From: Chloroflexota bacterium
GTDB lineage: Bacteria > Chloroflexota > Dormibacteria > CF-121
Direction: 5' to 3'
NCBI GenBank assembly: GCA_005882045.1
Contig: VBHO01000070.1
Location: forward strand, 1 to 38,694
Length of the DNA: 38,694 nt
The notes below the pieces were generated by a model. That model had not been told where the DNA came from. It did no database searches and saw nothing but the letters and a program-made list of their open reading frames with translations. The position numbers and the translations under genes were made by a program. Below, piece after piece: positions 5,952 to 37,797 of this stretch. Numbering within the stretch: position 1 is the first letter of the stretch; the number at the start of each line of letters is the position of its first letter.

Positions 5952-7304
5952 ATGGATGCGCTTCGCGCCCTGCCGAGTGTGCATCAGGTTCTCGAGCTCG
6001 CCGAGGCACAGGCCCTGGTTGCCGTCCACGGCCGGGCACTGGTTCTGTTCGCGGTGCAGCGGGCCCTCGATGAGGAGCGCACCACCGGCACGATCGCCGA
6101 CCCAGCCGCCCGTATGGCACGGATCGAGGCGCTGGCTGGCGAGTTGCGACGGCCGCGCCTGCGTCCCGTGATCAACGCGACGGGGGTTGTTCTTCATACC
6201 AACCTGGGCCGAGCCCCGATGGCCAGCGCGGCGGCGCAGGCCGCCGCGAATATCGCGGGTCGCTATTCCACGCTGGAGTTCGACCCCCGGACGGGGCGGC
6301 GGGGACGCCGTCACGACCTGGTGGCCGACCTCCTCCGCTACCTGACCGGCGCCGAAGCGGCGGCGGTTGTCAACAATTGCGCCGCGGCGGTGCTCTTGAT
6401 GTTGACGGCCCTCGCCAAGGGTAAGGAGGTCATCGTCGGGCGTGGAGAGCTGGTCGAGATCGGCGGTGGGTTCCGGATGCCCGACGTCATGCGCCTCTCG
6501 GGTGCTCGCCTGGTCGAGGTGGGCACCACCAATCGCACCCGAGCCGAGGATTACGCCGCCGTCATCACGCCGAAAACGGCCGCCATCTTGAAGGTGCATG
6601 CGAGCAACTTCCAGGTGGTCGGCTTTACGGAGAGCGTTGAGATCGAGGCGCTGGCTCGGGTGGCCCGCCATCAGGGTGTGCTACTGCTGCATGACCTGGG
6701 CAGCGGGTCGCTGCTCGACACCGCCGCCTATGGACTTGCGGTGGAGCCGCGGATCCAGGACAGCCTGCGAGCCGGAACCGACCTGCTTGCGTGCAGCGGC
6801 GACAAATTGCTGGGTGGGCCGCAAGCCGGGTTGCTACTCGGCCGCGCCGAGGTGGTCGATCGAGTGATGAAACATCCGCTCGCGCGCGCGGTGCGCATCG
6901 ACAAGCTCACGCTCGCGGCGCTGACGGCGACCCTGGACCTGTACCTGACCCAGTCGATGGCCGAGCTTCCGATCTGGAACATGCTCGGTACCTCCGCCGA
7001 TGCGATTGCCGCCCGCGCACAGAGCTGGCAACGCTCGCTCCTGCAGCGTGGCATCGCGGTGGAGGTCGTCCCGACGGAGTCGACAGTGGGCGGTGGTTCG
7101 CTGCCCGGTGAGCGGCTGCCCACGTCCGCGCTGGCCATCACGCCACGCCCCGGCCGCGCAGCAGATCTCCTCCGCCGCCTGCGCGAGCACGAGCCGCCCG
7201 TCATCGGCCGCATCGAGCAGGAGCGCGTGCTGCTCGACCCGCGAACCGTGCTGCCCGGCGAAGACGATGCCCTCATCGACGCGGTGGTTGCCGCGCTCGC
7301 ATGA
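5952..7304 (+). CDS. selA: L-seryl-tRNA(Sec) selenium transferase
   Basis: NATGVVLHTNLGRAP, NNCAAAVLLML, SGDKLLGGPQAG (PLP lysine). Confidence 0.95.
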   Translation: MDALRALPSVHQVLELAEAQALVAVHGRALVLFAVQRALDEERTTGTIADPAARMARIEALAGELRRPRLRPVINATGVVLHTNLGRAPMASAAAQAAANIAGRYSTLEFDPRTGRRGRRHDLVADLLRYLTGAEAAAVVNNCAAAVLLMLTALAKGKEVIVGRGELVEIGGGFRMPDVMRLSGARLVEVGTTNRTRAEDYAAVITPKTAAILKVHASNFQVVGFTESVEIEALARVARHQGVLLLHDLGSGSLLDTAAYGLAVEPRIQDSLRAGTDLLACSGDKLLGGPQAGLLLGRAEVVDRVMKHPLARAVRIDKLTLAALTATLDLYLTQSMAELPIWNMLGTSADAIAARAQSWQRSLLQRGIAVEVVPTESTVGGGSLPGERLPTSALAITPRPGRAADLLRRLREHEPPVIGRIEQERVLLDPRTVLPGEDDALIDAVVAALA

Positions 7305-9193
7305 CCGAATCCAGCGGCGCGTCCTTCGTCGTCGGGACCGCCGGCCACATCGATCACGGGAAGTCGGCGCTGGTCAAGGCCTTGACGCAGATCGACCCCG
7401 ACCGGTTGGAGGAGGAGAAGCGCCGTGGCATGACGATCGACCTCGGTTTCGCCTACATGACGCTGCCCAGCGGCCGCCGGGTGGGGTTCATCGACGTGCC
7501 GGGGCATCAACGCTTTCTCAAGAACATGCTGGCCGGCGTCCATGGCATGGATGCCGTGCTGCTCGTGATCGCGGCGGACGAGGGTCCGCGGCCACAGACG
7601 CGCGAGCACCTCGCCATCATCGATCTCCTGGGAATCGAGCACGGTCTGGTGGTCCTCACCAAGGTGGACCTGGTGGACGACGCCTGGCTCGCGCTGGTTC
7701 GCGAGGAGGTGGCCGGCGTGCTCGCCGGAACGTCGCTCCAGCGGGCGCCGATCGTCGCCGCCTCCAGCGTTACCGGCGCGGGGCTGACGGAACTGCGGGC
7801 GGCGCTGGACGGCGAGCTCGCCAACACCGTGGCGCGACCGGACGTCGGCCGCCCGCGCCTACCGGTCGACCGATCGTTCGCCATGTCGGGCTTCGGCACG
7901 GTGGTGACAGGGACGCTGGTGGGTGGGGCCCTCCGCCAGGGCGCGGAGGTCTCGGTGCTGCCTGCCGGGCGCCGGGTAAGGATCCGCGGCCTGCAGCAGC
8001 ACAACCAGCCGGTCGAAGAAGCGCGACCGGGGAGTCGCACCGCGGTGAACCTCAGCGGCCTCGACCATTCCGACGTGCACCGTGGTGACGTGCTGGCGCT
8101 ACCCGGGACCCTGGCGCCCAGCCGACGCCTCGACGCGCGCCTGCACGTGCTGTCGGGAGCTGCTCAACCGCTGCGTCATCGCCAGCGGCTGCTGATGTAT
8201 CACGAGACGGCCGAGGTGATGGTGGAGATCAGCCTGCTCGAACGCGATGAGCTCGCCCCCGGAGACACCGGCTGGGCGCAGCTGTTTGCGGCCGGACCGC
8301 TGGTCGCCCTGGACGGCGATCGCTTCATCCTGCGCGTCCCCTCTCCGGCGGCCACGGTCGCCGGTGGCGTCATCGTCGACCGCGCGCCGCGCCGTCACCG
8401 CCGTCGCGATCCCGCGCTGCTCATCAATCTCGCCGCTCGCGAGCGTGCCGACCCGGCAACGGCGGCGGTCCTCGAGCTGGGCAAGCATCCCTGGGGTCTG
8501 CGTGACAAGGAGCTCGCTCGCTTTCTGGGCGTCCCCAGTGGACAGTTGGCGGAGGTCCTCGCCCCACTCACGGAGGGTGGCGTCGTGCGCCGCATGCCGT
8601 CGGGCTGGTTGGCCCGGGACCAATGGGACGGCTTGCAGTCACGCGTCACCACCTCGCTCGAGGCCTACCACGAGGCGCAACCGCTCCGTCGCGGGATGCC
8701 CAAAGAAGAGCTCCGCAGCCGGACCAGCATCCCGGCCGAGGTGTTCGCGGAGGTGCTTGGCCTGCTGGCGGACGAGGGTCGGATCGTGGAACGAGGAGGC
8801 GAGGTCGCGGTGGCCAGCCATAAGCAGTTGCTGAGCCGCGAGCAGGAAACCCTAATCGGCGAGTTTCTGGCCGAGCTCGAGTCGCAGCCGTTCAACCCTC
8901 CGCCGCTGGCCGACCTCTTGCGCCGGCACCCGCTGACGCCGGCGCTTCTGCAATACGTGGTCGTCGACGGGCGGATCGTGCGCCTCAACGAGGACACGGT
9001 GTTTGCCCGATCCGCCTATGACGAGGCGGTCAGGCTGTTGCGCGCCCATCTGACCGCGCATCGGACGCTGACCGTGGCGGCCGCCCGCGACCTGCTGGGT
9101 TCGAGCCGCCGTTACGTTCTTCCCTTGCTCGAGTGGATGGACGCGCAGAAGATCACGCGCCGGGTCGGAGACGACCGTATCCTGAGAAGTTGA
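7301..9193 (+). CDS. selB: Selenocysteine-specific translation elongation factor
   Basis: VGTAGHIDHGKSALVKALT, DVPGHQRFLKNM, C-terminal winged-helix repeats; ATGA overlap with selA. Confidence 0.95.
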   Translation: MTESSGASFVVGTAGHIDHGKSALVKALTQIDPDRLEEEKRRGMTIDLGFAYMTLPSGRRVGFIDVPGHQRFLKNMLAGVHGMDAVLLVIAADEGPRPQTREHLAIIDLLGIEHGLVVLTKVDLVDDAWLALVREEVAGVLAGTSLQRAPIVAASSVTGAGLTELRAALDGELANTVARPDVGRPRLPVDRSFAMSGFGTVVTGTLVGGALRQGAEVSVLPAGRRVRIRGLQQHNQPVEEARPGSRTAVNLSGLDHSDVHRGDVLALPGTLAPSRRLDARLHVLSGAAQPLRHRQRLLMYHETAEVMVEISLLERDELAPGDTGWAQLFAAGPLVALDGDRFILRVPSPAATVAGGVIVDRAPRRHRRRDPALLINLAARERADPATAAVLELGKHPWGLRDKELARFLGVPSGQLAEVLAPLTEGGVVRRMPSGWLARDQWDGLQSRVTTSLEAYHEAQPLRRGMPKEELRSRTSIPAEVFAEVLGLLADEGRIVERGGEVAVASHKQLLSREQETLIGEFLAELESQPFNPPPLADLLRRHPLTPALLQYVVVDGRIVRLNEDTVFARSAYDEAVRLLRAHLTAHRTLTVAAARDLLGSSRRYVLPLLEWMDAQKITRRVGDDRILRS

Positions 9194-15318: not shown

Positions 15319-15761
15319 AGGTTGTCTTGATCCAGGACGTGAAAGGCACCGGGAAAGCCGGCGAGACGAAAGACGTCGCCGACGGCTTTGCCCGTAACTT
15401 CCTGCTGCCGCGAAAGCTGGCCCAGCAGGCCACCCGCGGCGCTCAGGAACAGGTCGATCGCCAGAAGGCCACCGAAACCAAACGCGAGGAGCGCGAGCTG
15501 GCCGATGCCCGGGCATTGGCCGTACGGCTCGAGGCGGCGCAGGTCGTATTGAAGCTCCGCAGCGGGAAGGATGGCAAGCTGTTCGGCGCCGTGACGAATG
15601 CCGACGTGGCATCGGCGCTCAAGCAGCAACATGGGATCACCCTCGACCGTCGCAAGATCGAGTTCGAGCAGCCTGTCAAGGCGATGGGGCCGGGCAGCGC
15701 GCACGTAAAGCTGCACCGTGAGGTCACGGCCCGCATCCCGTTGATGGTCGCCTCCGCTTGA
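15315..15761 (+). CDS. rplI: 50S ribosomal protein L9
   Basis: [36 protein letters not shown]. Confidence 0.95.
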
Positions 15762-18421
15762 CGGTCGACCTGAGACGTTCGCCGGCCCCGCCGGCGGCCG
15801 GTGGCCGCGTGCCGCCGCACAACCTCGAAGCGGAAGCATCGGTCCTCGGCTCCTTGATGCTCGACCGCAACGCGATCGTGCGGGTGGCTGACTTTTTGCG
15901 ACCCGAAGATTTTTACCTGGATCATCACGCCCAGGTGTACCGCGCGGCGCTGAACCTGTACGATCGCGCGGATCCCATCGACCTGCTCACGCTCGCCGCC
16001 GAGCTGGAGACGATGCGCGTGCTGGAGCGGATCGGCGGTCAGGCGTTCCTTGCCGAGCTGCAGAGCGGCGTGCCGACGGCCGCCAACGTCGAGTACTACG
16101 GCCACCTGGTCGAGGAAGGCGCGACCAAGAGAAAGTTGATCGGCGCCGGCGGACGAATCACGGCGCTTGGTTTCGACGAGAGCACGCCCGCCAGCCAGGC
16201 GCTGGATACCGCGGAAAGCGTCATCTTCAACATCGCCGAAGGCCGCATCACCCAGGACTTCGTCGCCCTCAAGGACATTCTCAAGACGACCTGGGATCAG
16301 ATCGAGCAGATCCACAAAGATTCGTCGGTCATCTCCGGCGTGCCAAGTGGTTTCCACGATCTGGATGCAAAAACCGGCGGTTTCCAGAAGTCAGATCTGA
16401 TCATCATTGCTGCAAGACCTGGGGTGGGAAAATGTGTGGTTTGGAACACGCTCGTCGATGATCCGGTCACTGGCGCTCGGGTCACGATCGAACAGATCGT
16501 TCGTGAGCGGAGACCAATCGTGTTTGGGTTGTCGCCGCGAGGACGGATCGAATGGCGTCACGTCAGCGATTGGGTTGATAGCGGTGTTCAGCCATGTTTT
16601 GCGGTGACGACGCAGACCGGCCGGCGCATCGAGGTGACCGGACATCATCCGTTTATGACGGTCAGCGGCTGGCAGCCGCTACACGATCTGGTCGTTGGCG
16701 ACGCGATCGCTGTGCCACGGGCACTGCCGAGTTTCGGTAAGGAATCGATCGATCCGCAGCGCGCTCGGCTACTAGGATATTCCATTGGCGATGGGGGCCT
16801 CTCCCGTGGATCGCCCGCTTTCACAAATACGGACCCGATCATCATTGACGATTTCAAAGAGAGCGTCGCGTCGCACTTTCCAAACTGCCACATTGCCCAG
16901 CGGGGCATAACCTACTTCGTCTGTGCGTGGGCACGAGTGAGGTCGCTCAAGTTGAAAGAACGCCTCGCCGTCTATCTCCGCCGCGTGCGGAGGCCAATTG
17001 CGAAGAGTCCAATCATCGGCTGGCTCACACAGTTCGGTCTATGGGGAAAAAAGGCAGACATCAAGCGCTTTCCTGATCAGGTGTGGCGATGGAACCGCGA
17101 GACGCTTCGGGAGTTCCTGCGAGCATTAATGTCCTGTGACGGCAGCATCTTCGCGACCCAAAATGGCCATCCCCGGATCGAATTCGCGGTCGCGTCAGAA
17201 GGCTTAGCAAAGGATGTTCACCACGCCTTCGTCCGGTTCGGCATCGTATCGCGCCTCTACCGAAAGTCTGAGCGTTGCTGGCGCGTTCAAATCACCGACT
17301 CCGAGTCCGTGGCTCGATATCAAGCCGAAATTGGCTGGATCGGCGAAAAGGCAGGTCGGTTCCCAAATGACTTGCCGCAATTCCGGAGCAACAACGGGCA
17401 TCTGCCCAACGCGGTCTGGAAGTTGGTCGGTCAGGCAGCTTCGGCGCGTAATCTGTCGTGGGCGAAGCTCGCGGTCGTCTCCGGCGAGCGCGTTCGCACC
17501 TCCAAATTTGAGACCTACAATCCACGGACCAATCACGGCTTGTCTCAGCGTCGCCTGGCGATCTTCAACGAAGTGCTCGACGATCCACAGCTCGCGGCGC
17601 TAGCGAATCCGGAGTTGTACTGGGATCGGATCGTTTCGATCGAGCCGGCTGGTAACCACCAGGTCTATGACCTGACGGTTCCCGAGGGCGCCAACTTCAT
17701 CGCCGAGGACGTTATTGTCCATAACACCTCGCTGACACTCAACATCGCACAGCACGCATCGATCCAATACAAGGTTCCTGTGGCGATTTTCTCGCTCGAA
17801 ATGTCGGAGCAGCAGCTCGTTACCCGACTGCTGTGTAGCGAGGCGTCCGTCGATTCATATCGCCTTCGGACTGGACTTTTGAAAGACGCGGAGTGGCCGC
17901 GGATCGCGCAGGCGATGGGGGCGCTCTCGGAGGCCCAAATCTATATCGATGACTCGCCGAGCATTTCGGTGATGGAGATGCGAACGAAGGCACGCCGCTT
18001 GAAATCGGCGAACAATCTTGGGCTGATCATCGTCGACTATCTGCAGTTGATGCAGGGTCGGAATCAGGAAAACCGCGTGCAGGAGGTCTCTGAGATATCA
18101 CGTTCACTGAAGAGTCTGGCTCGCGAGTTGCAAGTTCCGGTCATCGCTTGCTCTCAGCTGAGTCGAGAGCCGGAGAAGCGAATTGACCACCGTCCGCAGC
18201 TTGCAGACCTCAGAGAAAGTGGCGGCATCGAGCAGGACTCGGACCTCGTGCTCTTCATTTATCGCGAGCGTTTTTACAACGACAACGTCGCAGAGGACAG
18301 GCGCAACATCGCCGAGATCATCATCGCGAAGCACCGCAATGGTCCCACCGGAAAGATCGAGCTGCTCTTCATCGATGAGCAAACCAGGTTTGCCAACCTC
18401 GATCGGGCACGCGGGCGCTAG
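15758..18421 (+). CDS. dnaB: Replicative DNA helicase DnaB, intein-containing precursor
   Basis: N-extein [18 protein letters not shown]...; C-extein [40 protein letters not shown]. Confidence 0.95.
16433..17725 (+). mobile_element. Intein (431 aa) in DnaB Walker A, with LAGLIDADG homing endonuclease domain
   Basis: PGVGK^C...VHN^TSLTLN junctions; block [15 protein letters not shown], block [10 protein letters not shown], endonuclease [12 protein letters not shown] and [12 protein letters not shown], block [26 protein letters not shown]. Confidence 0.93.
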
Positions 18422-28944: not shown

Positions 28945-30084
28945 ATGCGCATCGTCATCGCGCCCAATGCCTTCAAAGGGTCGCTGTCGGCGCTCGAGGC
29001 GGCGACCGCGATCGGCGAGGGCGTGCGGATCGCCGCTCCGGATGCGGATCTGGCGCTGGTCCCGATTGCGGACGGTGGTGACGGCACCGTCGACGCGCTG
29101 GTCCAAGGGACCCAGGGCGAGCGACGCAGCCGCCGGGTTCGCGGGCCACTCGGTGATCCCGTCGATGCGGAGTACGGGCTGATCGATGGGGGCTCGACGG
29201 CGGTGATCGAAATGGCGAAGGCAGCCGGCCTGGCGCTGGTACCGCCCGACAAGCAAGATCCACGGGTCACGACCACCTACGGCGTCGGCGAACTCATGCA
29301 ACACGCGTTCGACGCGGGCGCGCGCCATTTCATCGTCGGTATCGGCGGCAGCGCGACCAACGACGGCGGCGCCGGGATGGCGCAGGCGCTCGGCTATCAC
29401 CTGCTCGACAAAAACGGTCGCGAGCTGCCCCCTGGCGGCCTGGCGCTGAAGCGTTTGGCGCGGATCCATGTGGGCGGCGTGCACGCCAACTGGAAGGAGA
29501 CGGAGGTCGACGTTGCCTGCGACGTCACCAACCCGCTGACCGGACCACGTGGGGCGAGCGCCGTCTACGGCCCGCAGAAGGGCGCGACGCCAGAGATGGT
29601 CGCGGAACTCGATGACGCGCTCCATCACTTCGCCGAGATCATCCGCCGCGACCTCGGGGTGGACGTCGAGCCATTGCCCGGCGCCGGGGCAGCGGGCGGA
29701 CTTGGTGCCGGGCTCATGGCTTTTTCAGGCGCCCGGCTGCGGCCCGGCGCCGAGATGGTGATGGAGGCGCTGCACCTGGACGAGCGGCTGACCGGTGCGC
29801 AGCTCGTGATCACGGGCGAGGGCCGCATCGATTCGCAAACGGCGCGTTTCGGGAAGGGGCCCGCCGCCGTGGCGCGCCACGCGAAACAGGCTGGCATCCC
29901 GGTGGCCGCGATCGGCGGAAGCGTCGCCGACGAGACCGAACTCCGGCTGTTGTTCGACGGGCTGGAGGCGACCGTGGTCGAGCCCGGGACGCTCGAAGAG
30001 GCGATCGCCCAGGCGCGGCCGCTGCTGGTGCGGGCGGCGACCCGCCTGATGTGGCTGGTGTTGACCGGTCGTCGCCTCCGGTAG
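28945..30084 (+). CDS. Glycerate kinase (GlxK/GarK family)
   Basis: IAPNAFKGSLSALEAATAIGEG, VPIADGGDGTVDAL, GIGGSATNDGGAGMAQALG, ITGEGRIDSQTARFGKGP. Confidence 0.93.
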   Translation: MRIVIAPNAFKGSLSALEAATAIGEGVRIAAPDADLALVPIADGGDGTVDALVQGTQGERRSRRVRGPLGDPVDAEYGLIDGGSTAVIEMAKAAGLALVPPDKQDPRVTTTYGVGELMQHAFDAGARHFIVGIGGSATNDGGAGMAQALGYHLLDKNGRELPPGGLALKRLARIHVGGVHANWKETEVDVACDVTNPLTGPRGASAVYGPQKGATPEMVAELDDALHHFAEIIRRDLGVDVEPLPGAGAAGGLGAGLMAFSGARLRPGAEMVMEALHLDERLTGAQLVITGEGRIDSQTARFGKGPAAVARHAKQAGIPVAAIGGSVADETELRLLFDGLEATVVEPGTLEEAIAQARPLLVRAATRLMWLVLTGRRLR

Positions 30085-30114
30085 GCGCCGGCCCCACCGC
30101 CTAAGATCGCATGA

Positions 30115-30462
30115 GTGCCGCACCGCCACGACGATGAGTACCTCCACCGTCATGCCTTTGATGCGGCGCCCCACCGGCACCGCCTCATCGAGGTGATCGA
30201 GCATGCGCACGGGGCTCATGGCGACGACCGCCACGACCACACGCACATCATCATGACCGCGCCGGCTGAGAGCGGCGGTAAGGCATCGCAGCACCGTCAC
30301 CGGCTGGAGTCGCCCTTCGAGCACGACCATCCCTCAGAGGATCCGCGGCACCGTCACCAGCTGGGCGAGATCGAGCACGAAGAACGGGATCGCCACTGGC
30401 ATGGGGTGGAGATCACGGAGATCGAAGTGACGGTCGAGCCCCCGAAACGCCGCCGGAACTAG
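30115..30462 (+). CDS. Histidine-rich 115-aa protein with internal HRHxL(x4-5)EH repeats
   Basis: 21 His in 115 residues by hand count; GTG start; ends on a stop shared with the convergent sigma factor gene. Confidence 0.6.
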   Translation: MPHRHDDEYLHRHAFDAAPHRHRLIEVIEHAHGAHGDDRHDHTHIIMTAPAESGGKASQHRHRLESPFEHDHPSEDPRHRHQLGEIEHEERDRHWHGVEITEIEVTVEPPKRRRN

Positions 30463-31340
30463 TGCTTGCGGTAACCGCCCTGCACGCGCCCGTCCATGAA
30501 GGAGATCTTGGGGTGGCGCACTTTCGACGTCAGACGCCGCGTGACCACACCGGTATTCAGCTGGACGATGACGTCGTTGCGCTGGAGATGCGGCGGGTTT
30601 GGATACCGATCGGTGCAGGCGGGGCAGGACTCGAGGTGCTGCGCCACCATCTTCCGTTGCTCCCGCCGAAGCGTTCCCGGCGGGAAGTTATCGAGCAAGT
30701 AGGCGATCGTCGGGCAGCGTGTCTCCTCGGTCTGGGCCTTGCCCTCCATGAAGAGGTATTCCTCCTTGAAGCGGCGGCGGGCCCGGTGCAGCAAGGTCTC
30801 CACCGCGCTCTCGGAAACCTTCATCTTGCGGGCGATGTTGGCGTAGCTGAGACCCTGCAGCTCGCGGAGGGTCAGGACCAGGCGGTACTTCTCCGGCAAG
30901 CGGCGCGCCACTGACCAGACGGCGTCCCGCAGTTCGCTGATCTCAAGGGCGACCTCAGGGCTCTTGCGCGCGTCGCCATCCGGCACCTGGAGCACGGAAT
31001 CTTCGCTTTCTTCGTCGTCGATTTCCTGGGCCTCGGGGAACTTCTTGCGGCGGCGAAGCTCGTCGTAGCAGAGGTTGGTCGCGATGCGGTGGATCCAGGC
31101 CGAGAAGTTGAAGCTGTCGTTGATGCGGTGGATGGTGCGGAGGATCTGGAAGAAGGTCTCCTGGGTCAGGTCCTCGGCCAGCTGTCGGTCGCGTAGCAGC
31201 CGGAAGGTCAGACCGTAGATCGCTTTGTGATATCGGCGGAAGAGAGTGTCGAAAGCCGCCACATCGCCGCCGAGGTAGTCGCGTATGAGATCGAGATCCG
31301 AGGGCCCTTTGGCAACTCGCGTCACTACTTTGTCTCCCAC
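30459..31340 (-). CDS. ECF-type RNA polymerase sigma factor with C-terminal zinc-finger-like (HxxxCxxC) extension
   Basis: DLTQETFFQILRTIHRINDSFNFSAWIHRIATNLCYDELRRRKK; LQGLSYANIARKMKVSESAVETLLHRARRRFKE; tail QHLESCPAC. Confidence 0.9.
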   Translation of the reverse strand: MGDKVVTRVAKGPSDLDLIRDYLGGDVAAFDTLFRRYHKAIYGLTFRLLRDRQLAEDLTQETFFQILRTIHRINDSFNFSAWIHRIATNLCYDELRRRKKFPEAQEIDDEESEDSVLQVPDGDARKSPEVALEISELRDAVWSVARRLPEKYRLVLTLRELQGLSYANIARKMKVSESAVETLLHRARRRFKEEYLFMEGKAQTEETRCPTIAYLLDNFPPGTLRREQRKMVAQHLESCPACTDRYPNPPHLQRNDVIVQLNTGVVTRRLTSKVRHPKISFMDGRVQGGYRKH

Positions 31341-32227: not shown

Positions 32228-33950
32228 AGTCGTTGCCCTGGCGCTGCTGCCCCTGCTTGGCGGCTGCAGTTCACTGCCCTCGGTCCCGCGGATCTCTCTG
32301 GGCACCGCCAGCCCTTCCGGGTCTCAGTACCAGCCGGAGCCCGCTCGCCACGAGGGCGGAACCCTGCTGGTGGGGGACTGGGAGAGCCCCACGAACTTTT
32401 CCCCGCTCTTCAACGAAGAAGTGCCGGCTGCGCAAGTCGACGCGCTGCTCTACGGCGGCCTGGTGAAGCTCGACAACAGCCTGCAGCCGATCGCTGATCT
32501 CGCCGAACGCGTCCCGACGCTGCAAAACGGGGACGTGAACTGGAACCGTGCCGCCGGCACGATGGACGTGTCCTACCGGCTGCGGTCCGGGTTGCGCTGG
32601 TCCGACGGACAGCCGATAACTGCGGACGACGTGGCGTTCACCTGGGGGGTGATCGTGAACCCGCAGGTCCAGGGCGTTCTTTCGCCCGACGGCTACCGGT
32701 CGATCTCGCGGGTCGACATCCACGACGCGCAACGCTTCACGCTGCACTTCGATCGGGTCTATCCGAAGTATCTCAACCTCTTCCCGGCGATCCTGCCCAA
32801 GCATCGATTGGGCGGAATTGCCCCTGAGGCGCTGGGCGGCGATCCCTTCTGGTCCCGACCGGATGTGGTGAGCGGCCCTTTCAAGATCTCCGAGATGGTT
32901 CCGGACGACCACATCACACTGATTCGCAACGACGCCTGGTCGCAGGGTCGGTCGGGTCGGCGACCGCACCTCGACAGCATTGTCTACAAGCTCTACCCGG
33001 AATCGGGCCAGCTCGTCGATGCGGTGCGCGCCGGCCAGGTGTCGGTGGCGCTGGAAATCCCTGATGACCAGCTGGCGACGCTGACCAACACCGGATTGGC
33101 GACGACGCAGCATCGATCTCAGCTCGCCTACGAGCATGTGACCTTCAACCAGGCCGATCCGAATCCGGCAACCGGCCAGCCGCCGCCGTGGAAGGACGAT
33201 CCGGCGCTCCTCCAGGCGCTGCGCACGGCGATCAACCGCGGGGCGATCGTCAAGAAATTCTTCCGCGACCAGGCACAGCTCGCCCAGTCGCCCATCCCCA
33301 GCGCCCTGGCTGCATTTCATGATCCCAACGTCTCGCTCGTTTACGACGCGGAGGCCGCGACCCGATTGCTCGATGGCGACGGGTGGGCCGTCGGTTCGGA
33401 TGGGATTCGCAGCAAGCAGGGACGGCGCCTGAGTTTTCACCTGGTGACGGCGCTGGGCAGCCCCTTGCGCAACGCCGTCCGCGATCAGCTGATCGCCGAT
33501 TGGCGCAAGATCGGCGCCGAGGTGATCCCAACCGACGCGCACCCCAGCGAGCTATTCAGCGGCTATGCCGAGGGTGGGCTGCTCGAGCGTGGCCAGTTCG
33601 AGGCTGGGTTGTGGACCTGGAGCATCGGTCCCGACCCTGACGGCGTCTATCCGCTCGAGAATTCCTCGCAGATCCCGACCGATCAGAACCAGGGGCTGGG
33701 CTCGAACTTTGGCCGCTTCAGCAATCCGGATCTCGATCGCCACCTCGATCGCGGTCGCAGCACGCTCGTGATGGTCGAGCGGGCCAAAGCCTACGCCGCC
33801 TTCGAACGCACTTACGCGCATCTTGGCTTTGAGCTGCCCCTTTTTGAGCGGGTGCTCGTCGTTCTGGGGAGTCCCCATTTGCACAACCTGTTGCCCAACC
33901 CTGCCCCCGATACCACCCTCTGGAACGCGGCCGACTGGTGGATCGACTGA
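32217..33950 (+). CDS. ABC transporter family 5 (dipeptide/oligopeptide) substrate-binding lipoprotein; start codon uncertain
   Basis: Frame reads ...LKASVVALALLPLLGGCSSLPS (signal peptide + lipobox) into EGGTLLVGDWESPTNFSPLFNEE...; no ATG/GTG/TTG in frame until 32370, CTG at 32217 is the best-placed candidate. Confidence 0.75.
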   Translation: MKASVVALALLPLLGGCSSLPSVPRISLGTASPSGSQYQPEPARHEGGTLLVGDWESPTNFSPLFNEEVPAAQVDALLYGGLVKLDNSLQPIADLAERVPTLQNGDVNWNRAAGTMDVSYRLRSGLRWSDGQPITADDVAFTWGVIVNPQVQGVLSPDGYRSISRVDIHDAQRFTLHFDRVYPKYLNLFPAILPKHRLGGIAPEALGGDPFWSRPDVVSGPFKISEMVPDDHITLIRNDAWSQGRSGRRPHLDSIVYKLYPESGQLVDAVRAGQVSVALEIPDDQLATLTNTGLATTQHRSQLAYEHVTFNQADPNPATGQPPPWKDDPALLQALRTAINRGAIVKKFFRDQAQLAQSPIPSALAAFHDPNVSLVYDAEAATRLLDGDGWAVGSDGIRSKQGRRLSFHLVTALGSPLRNAVRDQLIADWRKIGAEVIPTDAHPSELFSGYAEGGLLERGQFEAGLWTWSIGPDPDGVYPLENSSQIPTDQNQGLGSNFGRFSNPDLDRHLDRGRSTLVMVERAKAYAAFERTYAHLGFELPLFERVLVVLGSPHLHNLLPNPAPDTTLWNAADWWID

Positions 33951-33989
33951 TAAGTCTTGTTAGTGAACCTTAGAAAAGCCCGGGTTTCG

Positions 33990-34019
33990 TTGACCCTCTC
34001 GGGCGGGCGCCCGTACAAT
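33990..34019 (+). promoter_or_regulatory. Sigma70-like promoter for second SBP gene
   Basis: TTGACC (33990-33995) - 18 nt - TACAAT (34014-34019), 30 nt before ATG. Confidence 0.55.
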
Positions 34020-34049
34020 GCGCCAAGCATCAGGGCCACCAGAGGTCGT

Positions 34050-35858
34050 ATGACAGAAACCTGCCCACGCTGGTTGCGCCTCCTTGTGGTCGCGACCGCG
34101 GGTACCGTGCTGCTGGTGGCCTGCGCTCCGACGGCCGGCCCGCCGACCACGTCGCCCAAGGCGGGTGGGAGGCTTACCGTTGCCTCGTGGCAGGAGCAGG
34201 ACAGCCTGCTGGCCTGCAATATCACGTCCGCCGCATCGCACGCATGCGCCTATATCAACCCGGCGATGGAAGGACTGCTGACCGTCAAGGCCAACCAGGA
34301 TCCGCTGCCCACCAATCCGAAACTGTCCGATTACTGGGTTCCCGAACTGGCGACGGAGGTCCCCACGCTCGAAAACGGGGACGTCAAAGTCAACGGAAAC
34401 AAAATGGACGTCACCTGGAAGCTGCGACACGGCGTCAAGTGGCACGACGGCGTGGCCTTCAGCTCCAAGGACGTCAAGGCGACGTTCGACTTCTGGTGGC
34501 TCAAATACCGTGATAAGAACCCGACGCCATTGATATCAACCAGCGGATGGGACCAGGTCGATAGCGTGGATACGCCAGACGACTTCACGGCCATCGTCCA
34601 CTTCAAGAGCGTCTACGCCGCCTACCTGACGCTCGGCACCGGCCCCTACGGCGTCCTGCCCGAGCACCTGTTGCAGCAGGTCTGGGCCCAGACCGGCGAT
34701 ATCACCCACGACAAAGTCACGGTCAGCATCGCGAACGGCTACAGCGGCTCGGACACGCTCGACAAGATCATGGTCGGCACGGGGCCCTTCATGTTCAAGG
34801 AATGGGTGACGGGGGACCACCTGACGTTGGTGCGAAATCCCCACTGGTGGGGTGGTGGTGGCCGCCCCTACCTCAACGAGATCCGGGTCAAATTCGACGC
34901 GGATGCCAACACCGAGCTCAACGAGCTGCGCACCAACACCATCGACATGGCGCTGGACTTGCGGCCGTCATTGTTGCCATCACTCTCGAGGCAGAGTGAT
35001 GTCACGACGGTGACGATCCTCGATAGTGCCACCGAGCACCTCGACATCAACCTGCACAACACCTTCCTCAAGGACGTGACCCTGCGAAAGGCGATCCTGA
35101 TGGCGATCGACCGGCAGAGAATCGTGGACACCTTGCTGCTCGGCCGGACAGTGGTGCCCCCCGACGCCTGGATGTGCATCCAGACGGGCGCCTGGTGCCT
35201 GGATCCGAATGCCAAGCACACTCCCTACGATGTGGCGGCGGCCAACAAGCTGCTCAACGACGCCGGTTACAAGCTCCAGACCTCCGGGCCCTGCAAGGGA
35301 TTCCGCACGGACCCGCAAGGACGTTGCGTGCAGCTCCATCTGATCACGACCACCCTGCCGCTGCGCGAAGAGCAGGAGGTCGTGATCGCCTCCGACCTCG
35401 CGGGGATCGGGATTCAGATCATCAAACCCTTCGCCAACGTCCCGGCCAGCCGCATGTTCGGCTCCTGCACCAGCGGCGGGATCATCTACAGCCACAACTT
35501 CGATCTCGCCATGTACACCAACAACTACAGTTACCCGGCGGAGCCCGACTCGCTCGCCTACACCGCCTACCACAGCTCCCAAATCCCGACCGACGCCAAT
35601 GGGTGCGTCGGTCAGAACACGACCTACATGAGCGACCCCCAGCTTGACCAGGCGCTCGACCAGGCGCGGCTGTCGGTCAAACTGTCGGATCGGAAGGATA
35701 AGTACATCGTGGCCCAGAGGCGGCTGGCCGACGTCATCCCCGAGATTCCGCTTTACCAGGCGGTCGACGTCGAGGCCTACAACAAGAAGCTGGCCGGCTA
35801 CAAGGGCAACGAATTCTGGTGGATGAACCAGTCCGCCGATTGGTACATCAGCCAATAA
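34050..35858 (+). CDS. ABC transporter family 5 peptide-binding lipoprotein (second, tandem)
   Basis: MTETCPRWLRLLVVATAGTVLLVACAPTAG lipobox; WKLRHGVKWHDGVAFSSKDVKATFDFWW. Confidence 0.9.
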   Translation: MTETCPRWLRLLVVATAGTVLLVACAPTAGPPTTSPKAGGRLTVASWQEQDSLLACNITSAASHACAYINPAMEGLLTVKANQDPLPTNPKLSDYWVPELATEVPTLENGDVKVNGNKMDVTWKLRHGVKWHDGVAFSSKDVKATFDFWWLKYRDKNPTPLISTSGWDQVDSVDTPDDFTAIVHFKSVYAAYLTLGTGPYGVLPEHLLQQVWAQTGDITHDKVTVSIANGYSGSDTLDKIMVGTGPFMFKEWVTGDHLTLVRNPHWWGGGGRPYLNEIRVKFDADANTELNELRTNTIDMALDLRPSLLPSLSRQSDVTTVTILDSATEHLDINLHNTFLKDVTLRKAILMAIDRQRIVDTLLLGRTVVPPDAWMCIQTGAWCLDPNAKHTPYDVAAANKLLNDAGYKLQTSGPCKGFRTDPQGRCVQLHLITTTLPLREEQEVVIASDLAGIGIQIIKPFANVPASRMFGSCTSGGIIYSHNFDLAMYTNNYSYPAEPDSLAYTAYHSSQIPTDANGCVGQNTTYMSDPQLDQALDQARLSVKLSDRKDKYIVAQRRLADVIPEIPLYQAVDVEAYNKKLAGYKGNEFWWMNQSADWYISQ

Positions 35859-35890
35859 GTTTCTCCAGGGTGGAGGATTAGGGTGGGGGC

Positions 35891-36886
35891 GTGACCACCT
35901 ACGCCGTTCGCCGGATTCTGCAGGCGATCCCGCTCCTGCTCGTGATTTCCTTCGTGCTCTTTGCCATCCTGCAGGTGCTGCCGGAGAAGCCGTGGGACCT
36001 GCTGCTGCGCAATCCCCGGATGACCGCCGCCGATCGCGCCCGCCTGTTGGCCTACTACGGGTTCAATCAGCCGTTTCTTACGCAGTACCTGACCTACATG
36101 CGCAACCTGTTGCATTTCGACCTCGGGTTTTCGTATTTCAGCCACCAGACCACCGTCAGCCTGATCGCCGAGCGGCTGCCCAACACCGCGCTCCTGATGG
36201 GCACCGCCTACATCTTCACGCTGCTGGTCGCGATCCCGATTGGGATCGTGGCGGCGGTGAGGCAATATTCGAAGCTCGACAACTTCCTCACCACGGGCGC
36301 CTTCATTGGTATCTCGCTGCCCCAGTTCTGGTTCGGCTTGATGCTGATCATCCTGCTCTCGGTGCTGCCCTACCAGCACCTCGGCTTCCGCCTCTTTCCC
36401 ACAGACGGCATGTGGGACTCGGGCCACGAGGGCAACCTCGCGCACCTGAACCTGGGTGATCCGCTCAACCTGGCCTGGCACCTGGTGCTGCCGGGAATCG
36501 TGCTGGCGGTCCAGTCGATCGCGCAGTACAGCCGGTTCGTGCGCAGCAGCATGCTCGACGTCCTGGGCCAGGACTACATTCGGACCGCCCGCGCCAAGGG
36601 CCTCTCCCAACTGCGCGTCGTGGTTCGGCACGGATTTCGCAACTCGCTCTTGCCCCTCATCACACTGATGGGTCTCGACGTGCCGCAACTGTTCGCGGGT
36701 GCGCTGATCACCGAACAGGTCTTCACCTGGCCCGGCATGGGGCGGTTGTTCTGGGAATCCGCGGGCAAGGGCGATTACCAGGTGCTGCTCGGCATCATGA
36801 TCATCCTGGCGGTCCTCGTCGTGCTGGGCAACTTGATCGCCGACCTGGCCTATGGTTGGGCCGACCCCCGGATCCAGTACCGATGA
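35891..36886 (+). CDS. Dipeptide/oligopeptide ABC transporter permease (DppB/OppB)
   Basis: RILQAIPLLLVISFVLFAI, DYIRTARAKGLSQLRVVVRHGFRNSLLPLITLMG, ITEQVFTWPGMGRLF. Confidence 0.93.
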   Translation: MTTYAVRRILQAIPLLLVISFVLFAILQVLPEKPWDLLLRNPRMTAADRARLLAYYGFNQPFLTQYLTYMRNLLHFDLGFSYFSHQTTVSLIAERLPNTALLMGTAYIFTLLVAIPIGIVAAVRQYSKLDNFLTTGAFIGISLPQFWFGLMLIILLSVLPYQHLGFRLFPTDGMWDSGHEGNLAHLNLGDPLNLAWHLVLPGIVLAVQSIAQYSRFVRSSMLDVLGQDYIRTARAKGLSQLRVVVRHGFRNSLLPLITLMGLDVPQLFAGALITEQVFTWPGMGRLFWESAGKGDYQVLLGIMIILAVLVVLGNLIADLAYGWADPRIQYR

Positions 36887-37797
36887 TCAATCCCACCCTC
36901 GAACAATCGGAGCTACCACCGGGAGCAGGACAACTCGTCCCCGACTACGACCTCACGCGGGAGATCGGCTACTACCAGTTGGTGTGGCGCCGGCTCCTCC
37001 GCCATCGCCTGGCGGTGATCGCCGGCGGCTATCTTGGCCCGCTGCTGCTGCCCATGCGCTGGGATGAGCCCGACCTCTTCAATCGCTACGCCCCGCCGTC
37101 CTTCCCGCATGTGATGGGCACCGACGACCTGGGACGCGATCTCTTCAAGCGAATCCTCGAGGGCGGCCAGGTGTCGCTCGCCGTCGGCGTATTGGCCATG
37201 CTGGTCACCATCGTCCTGGGCGGCCTGATCGGCGCGCTGGCCGGGTATTTTGGGCGCCTTGCCGACAACGCCATGATGCGATTCACCGACGCTGTCCTCG
37301 CCATTCCGCAGATCTTCGTCCTGATCTTGATCATCGCCTCGTTCCGTCAGGCCGGTCACACGCCGGCCGTCATCATCTTCGCGATCGGGGTGACGTCCTG
37401 GCCGTACACCGCTCGCATCATCCGGTCGGTGGTACTGTCGATCCGCGAGAAGGAGTTCGTCGAGGCCGCCCGCGCGACCGGCTCGGGCAACTGGAAAATC
37501 CTGGCGCGCCACGTGCTGCCCAACGCCCTGGGACCGATCATGGTGGCGGCCACCCTCACCATCGGCTTTGCCATCATCCTGGAGAGCGCGCTCAGCTTTC
37601 TCGGCTACGGGTTGGGCCCGCCGATCGCCTCCTGGGGCGGGATGTTGTTCAACGCCAACGCCTTCATCTATGACGCGCCGTACGCACCCTTCGCCGCTCT
37701 GTTCCCAGGCCTGATGATTCTGATCGCGGTGCTCTGTGTGAACTTCGTCGGAGATGGGCTGCGGGATGCCTTCGACCCGCGGTCCTTCGAGCGCTGA
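36883..37797 (+). CDS. Dipeptide/oligopeptide ABC transporter permease (DppC/OppC)
   Basis: HVMGTDDLGRDLFKRILEGGQVSLAVG, EFVEAARATGSGNWKILARHVLPNALGPI; TM1 region unusually short. Confidence 0.9.
   Translation: MINPTLEQSELPPGAGQLVPDYDLTREIGYYQLVWRRLLRHRLAVIAGGYLGPLLLPMRWDEPDLFNRYAPPSFPHVMGTDDLGRDLFKRILEGGQVSLAVGVLAMLVTIVLGGLIGALAGYFGRLADNAMMRFTDAVLAIPQIFVLILIIASFRQAGHTPAVIIFAIGVTSWPYTARIIRSVVLSIREKEFVEAARATGSGNWKILARHVLPNALGPIMVAATLTIGFAIILESALSFLGYGLGPPIASWGGMLFNANAFIYDAPYAPFAALFPGLMILIAVLCVNFVGDGLRDAFDPRSFER

Follow-up and report, generated by a model that had tools for sequence, protein, structure and literature searches.

Does a short, unusually histidine-rich open reading frame in the genome of an uncultured soil member of the Chloroflexi encode a real protein, and what might such a protein do? 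The frame occupies positions 30115–30462 on the forward strand of the window, by which we mean the whole stretch of 38,694 nucleotides that was analysed, contig C136 of a 3.2-Mb draft genome. It begins with GTG, ends with TAG and specifies 115 residues, 21 of which are histidine, as a sequence-only reading of this DNA had reported; the N-terminus reads M(GTG)PHRHDDEYLHRH... Of the window's 260 open frames with 80 residues or more, it has the highest histidine fraction, 18.3%, the runner-up having 10.4%. There are 10 HxH pairs; residue shuffles average 3.6, and none of 2000 reaches 10. The 13.7-kDa product has no cysteine, a pI of 6.2 and a GRAVY of −1.47, and its 14 arginines and 24 aspartates and glutamates, the acidic residues being interspersed, leave the net charge near neutral. 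Its N-terminus (MPHRHDDEYLHRH) is very hydrophilic with no hydrophobic stretch, which, together with the GRAVY value, is consistent with the earlier claim that no signal peptide is present.

Full or partial orthologues were found in 10 of the 15 genomes of the genus, that is, in the window's own genome and in 9 of 14 congeners; four of the orthologous loci belong to public Chloroflexi metagenome-assembled genomes. The copy in G009 runs off the end of its contig, and that in G006 (locus L009, 1505–1560; contig G006:C147) has a frameshift where some 106 nucleotides are missing between short direct repeats, reflecting either gene decay or an assembly error. G003 carries two diverged copies, on contigs C24 (L008) and C167 (L013), which may be paralogues or may come from mixed strains, this draft genome having 5% contamination.

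Long spurious open frames are common in the window, and several orthologues also have an open antisense frame; both observations lend some colour to the idea that the frame arose by chance in G+C-rich sequence or merely mirrors an antisense gene. The pattern of substitution refutes this idea, and we give it practically no credence. Only the proposed frame (+1) is free of internal stops in all orthologues (the one stop scored in G005 is the terminator of the gene), the variable columns at codon positions 1, 2 and 3 number 43, 40 and 93 of 108, respectively, and across all orthologue pairs the mean pS is 0.56 and the mean pN 0.18, with a median dN/dS of 0.19. Moreover, the start and the −10 box described below are conserved, and valine-rich antisense frames are to be expected opposite CAC and CAT codons. 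In the nine full-length orthologues, 20 of the 21 columns in which histidine is the commonest residue are invariant, compared with 31 of the 93 other columns. As CAC and CAT are exchanged at 17 of these 20 invariant positions, it is the histidine residue itself that selection keeps. We conclude that the histidine-rich frame is a genuine gene under purifying selection. The sequence-only reading had taken a lack of homologues with a conserved frame as the result that would count against it; the search returned orthologues, a conserved frame and selection.

The region immediately upstream bears on how the gene is expressed. A −10-like box of the form TANNNT (TAAGAT, 30102–30107, forward strand) has its first T 13 nucleotides from the GTG start and is predicted to be a leaderless promoter. 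In all nine orthologues with an intact start, such a box (TAAGAT or TAACAT) begins 12–13 nucleotides before the ATG or GTG, the background frequency of TANNNT being 0.0015 per position, and the same arrangement precedes the deleted G006 copy. A TANNNT sequence some 12 bp upstream of the start is a signal of bacterial leaderless genes, and some Chloroflexi are listed among the bacteria that have them (PMC3160421). With this spacing found in nine of nine cases, the box is a credible predicted signature of a leaderless mRNA, and no Shine–Dalgarno sequence is evident by eye. An in-frame stop directly precedes the GTG at 30115; the position of the box nevertheless makes this start credible. Since the promoter-like element is conserved and the gene's own, the gene probably has expression of its own, beyond read-through from the gene before it.

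That upstream gene encodes a glycerate kinase (PF02595, E = 6.8e-143; 28945–30084, forward strand), and a glycerate kinase precedes every orthologue whose contig extends far enough; in G004 and G005, the TANNNT box overlaps the kinase stop codon. The gene downstream, in contrast to that upstream, differs between genomes. In the window it is a convergent gene for an ECF-type sigma factor (30459–31340, reverse strand), the stop codon of which overlaps that of the histidine-rich gene; in relatives it is, for example, a glyoxalase/VOC-like or an acyl-CoA-synthetase-like gene, these names coming from reading of the sequence and not from a profile. The window's sigma factor carries, in the same chain, a C-terminal HxxxCxxC resembling an anti-sigma zinc finger (zf-HC2, under the Pfam cut-off). 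No metal-related gene is a conserved neighbour at the orthologous loci, no metal-responsive operator was identified and there is no Rfam match at the locus.

Elsewhere in the window, genes for SelA (PF03841) and SelB (PF00009, SelB-wing) adjoin at 5952–9193 (forward strand), from which it appears that this lineage makes selenoproteins; the window yielded no tRNA. A gene for the DnaB replicative helicase, split by an intein that carries a LAGLIDADG endonuclease domain, lies at 15758–18421 (forward strand), and a peptide/nickel-type ABC transporter cluster at 32370–37797 (forward strand) comprises two family-5 solute-binding proteins and, after them, two permeases.

The kinase locus also gives a view of the history of the gene. 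Five congeners have the kinase and lack the histidine-rich gene. In three sister genera, the sigma factor comes next after the kinase, and the interval holds nothing recognisable. On a tree of the kinase, in which many branches are weak, presence and absence of the histidine-rich gene require at least two changes, so that it was either gained in the genus and then lost or gained more than once. A horizontal or mobile origin was considered and set aside, there being no match to the family in plasmids, phages or viral contigs.

When a profile of the protein was run against 18 genomes from the taxonomic family, 110 from the class and 400 drawn from the phylum, all matches fell within the genus. 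Two weak matches elsewhere in the class (G046 and G052, E ~1e-4) look unrelated or like chance frames, and they vanish when the profile is used. Pfam gave nothing above its cut-offs, the only hit being DUF5880 at E = 0.15, under its cut-off, and NCBIfam, PHROGs and the PDB sequences gave no match, in agreement with the original impression that no recognisable family is represented; a literature search turned up no relevant description of a Chloroflexi histidine-rich protein. At the sensitivity of these searches, which for other phyla used patterns from the single window sequence, the sequences mark the family as an orphan restricted to the genus; distant relatives in those other phyla may exist.

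Alignment of the orthologues resolves the protein into a series of elements, all on the forward strand, in which an H-x-H recurs, in many cases with R-L after it and E-H further on. The first, HRHDDEYxHRH (residues 3–13; 30121–30153), is found in every orthologue that has the N-terminus. It is followed by HxHRLxEVIEHAH (residues 20–32; 30172–30210), HxHTHI(I/V)MT (residues 40–48; 30232–30258), in which HTHI and MT are invariant, HRHRLxxPFEHDH (residues 60–72; 30292–30330) and HRHxLG(D/E)(L/I)xHxxxDRHWH (residues 79–96; 30349–30402). The chain continues in a histidine-free C-terminal tail of alternating hydrophobic residues (GVEITEIEVTVEP, residues 97–109; 30403–30441), with Ile100, Ile103 and Glu108 invariant. 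The spacing of the elements is fixed, with few insertions or deletions across the orthologues. The three similar units quoted in the sequence-only reading were located exactly where it had placed them, starting at 30172, 30292 and 30349, and the recurrence of HxH on which they are built is solid. Its further suggestion, that they are duplicated units, was not borne out. In the window's protein, the self-similarity of the best triple is matched by 7 of 300 residue shuffles, a borderline result, and by 107 of 300 shuffles that keep the HxH blocks intact, which is not significant; the likeness of the units is thus no greater than chance in the latter comparison, and we have discarded an origin by duplication of such 13-residue units. 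Two orthologues display the same self-similarity pattern.

What, then, is the function? The near-absolute conservation of the histidines favours multivalent metal binding, which is chemically likely for such a sequence, and on balance we lean towards a small cytosolic metal buffer or store built on the ten HxH pairs. A spacing suited to chelation that occurs far more often than in shuffles, histidine columns far more constant than the rest, the lack of cysteine, the acidic residues among the histidines and the pI of 6.2 all speak for this reading. The protein would bind several transition-metal ions through the ten pairs together with glutamate and aspartate, most likely Zn(II) and possibly Ni(II) or Cu, and would act as an intracellular buffer or store of the metal. 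We infer metal binding, the buffering role, the cytosolic site and the identity of the metal solely from composition and conservation. Against a buffer are the lack of a conserved metal-related neighbour and of an identified metal-responsive operator, and the distribution of candidate partners, since neither ZnuA, nor FUR, nor the Ni superoxide dismutase tracks the presence of the gene across the genus.

As to the metal, ZnuA-like proteins occur in 12 of 18 genomes of the family and FUR-family regulators in 17 of 18, with one of the latter close to a znuA-like gene in G000. The Ni superoxide dismutase (PF09055) is found in 16 of the 18, the window's genome included, and the HCDxPCGxY nickel hook is present in both relatives whose sequences were read, from which it follows that nickel is in use in these cells. 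Histidine-rich proteins of Helicobacter pylori serve in nickel storage (PMC4671568), and the present protein might by analogy be a nickel-specific store or chaperone, with a role like that of Hpn, that supplies or protects the dismutase. We consider this unlikely, however, because relatives without the histidine-rich gene (G001, G007, G011, G013 and G014–G017) possess the dismutase equally and because searches for [NiFe]-hydrogenase (PF00374) and urease (PF00449), which are the enzymes supplied in Helicobacter, detected neither in the 18 genomes although they were positive in control genomes. This takes away the clients that Hpn-type stores usually have. The drafts are 75–95% complete, which makes such gene absences soft. 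For the metal buffer, our first guess is zinc and our second nickel.

Conservation outside the histidines raises a different possibility. The strictness with which non-histidine residues are kept (HTHIxMT, PF, LG and DRHWH) exceeds the requirements of a loose store, a hint that the protein has a defined structure or a partner. The HxH pairs might thus lie on strands and form a defined site, housing a catalytic or structural metal or acting as a metal-triggered sensor rather than a store, and the fixed spacing of the elements would fit such an arrangement. Two AlphaFold runs gave pLDDT values of 38 and 39, too low for a fold search; the models, though unreliable, contain strands only and show nothing that suggests a compact apo fold. 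These values would fit a protein that is disordered in its apo form or that folds only on metal, and the small depth of the alignment, 10–11 close sequences, may be all that lies behind them. With models too poor to use, no profile match to a catalogued family or PDB sequence, and some 20 fixed histidines that far exceed the needs of one site, a structured protein with a defined site of this kind seems to us improbable. More speculatively, and with little weight attached, the ten fixed pairs may sit on successive short strands as a multi-metal ladder that folds only when loaded, a store or sensor confined to one genus of soil Chloroflexi and without relatives in known families.

A function other than metal binding, in which the protein responds to pH or binds phosphate, nucleic acid or protein through His/Arg and Glu/Asp patches, is suggested by the arginines beside the histidines, by the recurring HRH and by the same lack of a metal-related neighbour. 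Metal chelation accounts better, however, for the abundance of acidic residues and the exactness of the HxH spacing, and the near-neutral net charge and the pI also argue against a non-metal role, so that we rate such a function as quite unlikely.

If the metal buffer is the correct reading, the closest functional parallels are the Hpn-type proteins, which have stretches of His and Gln and store nickel in Helicobacter (PMC4671568). Like Hpn and Hpn-2 (Hpn-like), the protein described here is small, soluble, rich in histidine, a proposed multivalent store and restricted to one lineage. It differs in having HxH pairs, only 18% histidine and histidine positions that are fixed across species, and in belonging to a genus without detected urease or [NiFe]-hydrogenase; searches of Pfam, NCBIfam and PDB sequences found no sequence relationship. 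Clustered histidines with acidic residues also bind nickel or zinc in the histidine-rich extensions and loops of HypB, SlyD, the HspA C-terminus, ZnuA and CDF/ZIP transporters. The resemblance lies in this clustering, whereas here the whole free-standing protein is histidine-rich, with no catalytic, chaperone or transport domain attached. The cupin metal motif is HxH(x)3–4E, which HxHRLxE resembles locally, but neither a cupin profile nor a PDB sequence matched the protein; the models, with the low pLDDT noted above, are too poor to judge the fold.

Overall, the histidine-rich protein is best taken as a small new family of a familiar kind: histidines at chelating spacing are kept by selection, as would be expected of free-standing histidine-rich metal-binding proteins, a grouping by function and not by homology. 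Its histidine positions are fixed far more rigidly than would be expected of a loose histidine-rich store, which makes a defined structure plausible. If it is indeed a metal buffer, it would provide a compact scaffold for metal binding by histidine only and would be a way of storing metal peculiar to one genus of an uncultured lineage from soil.
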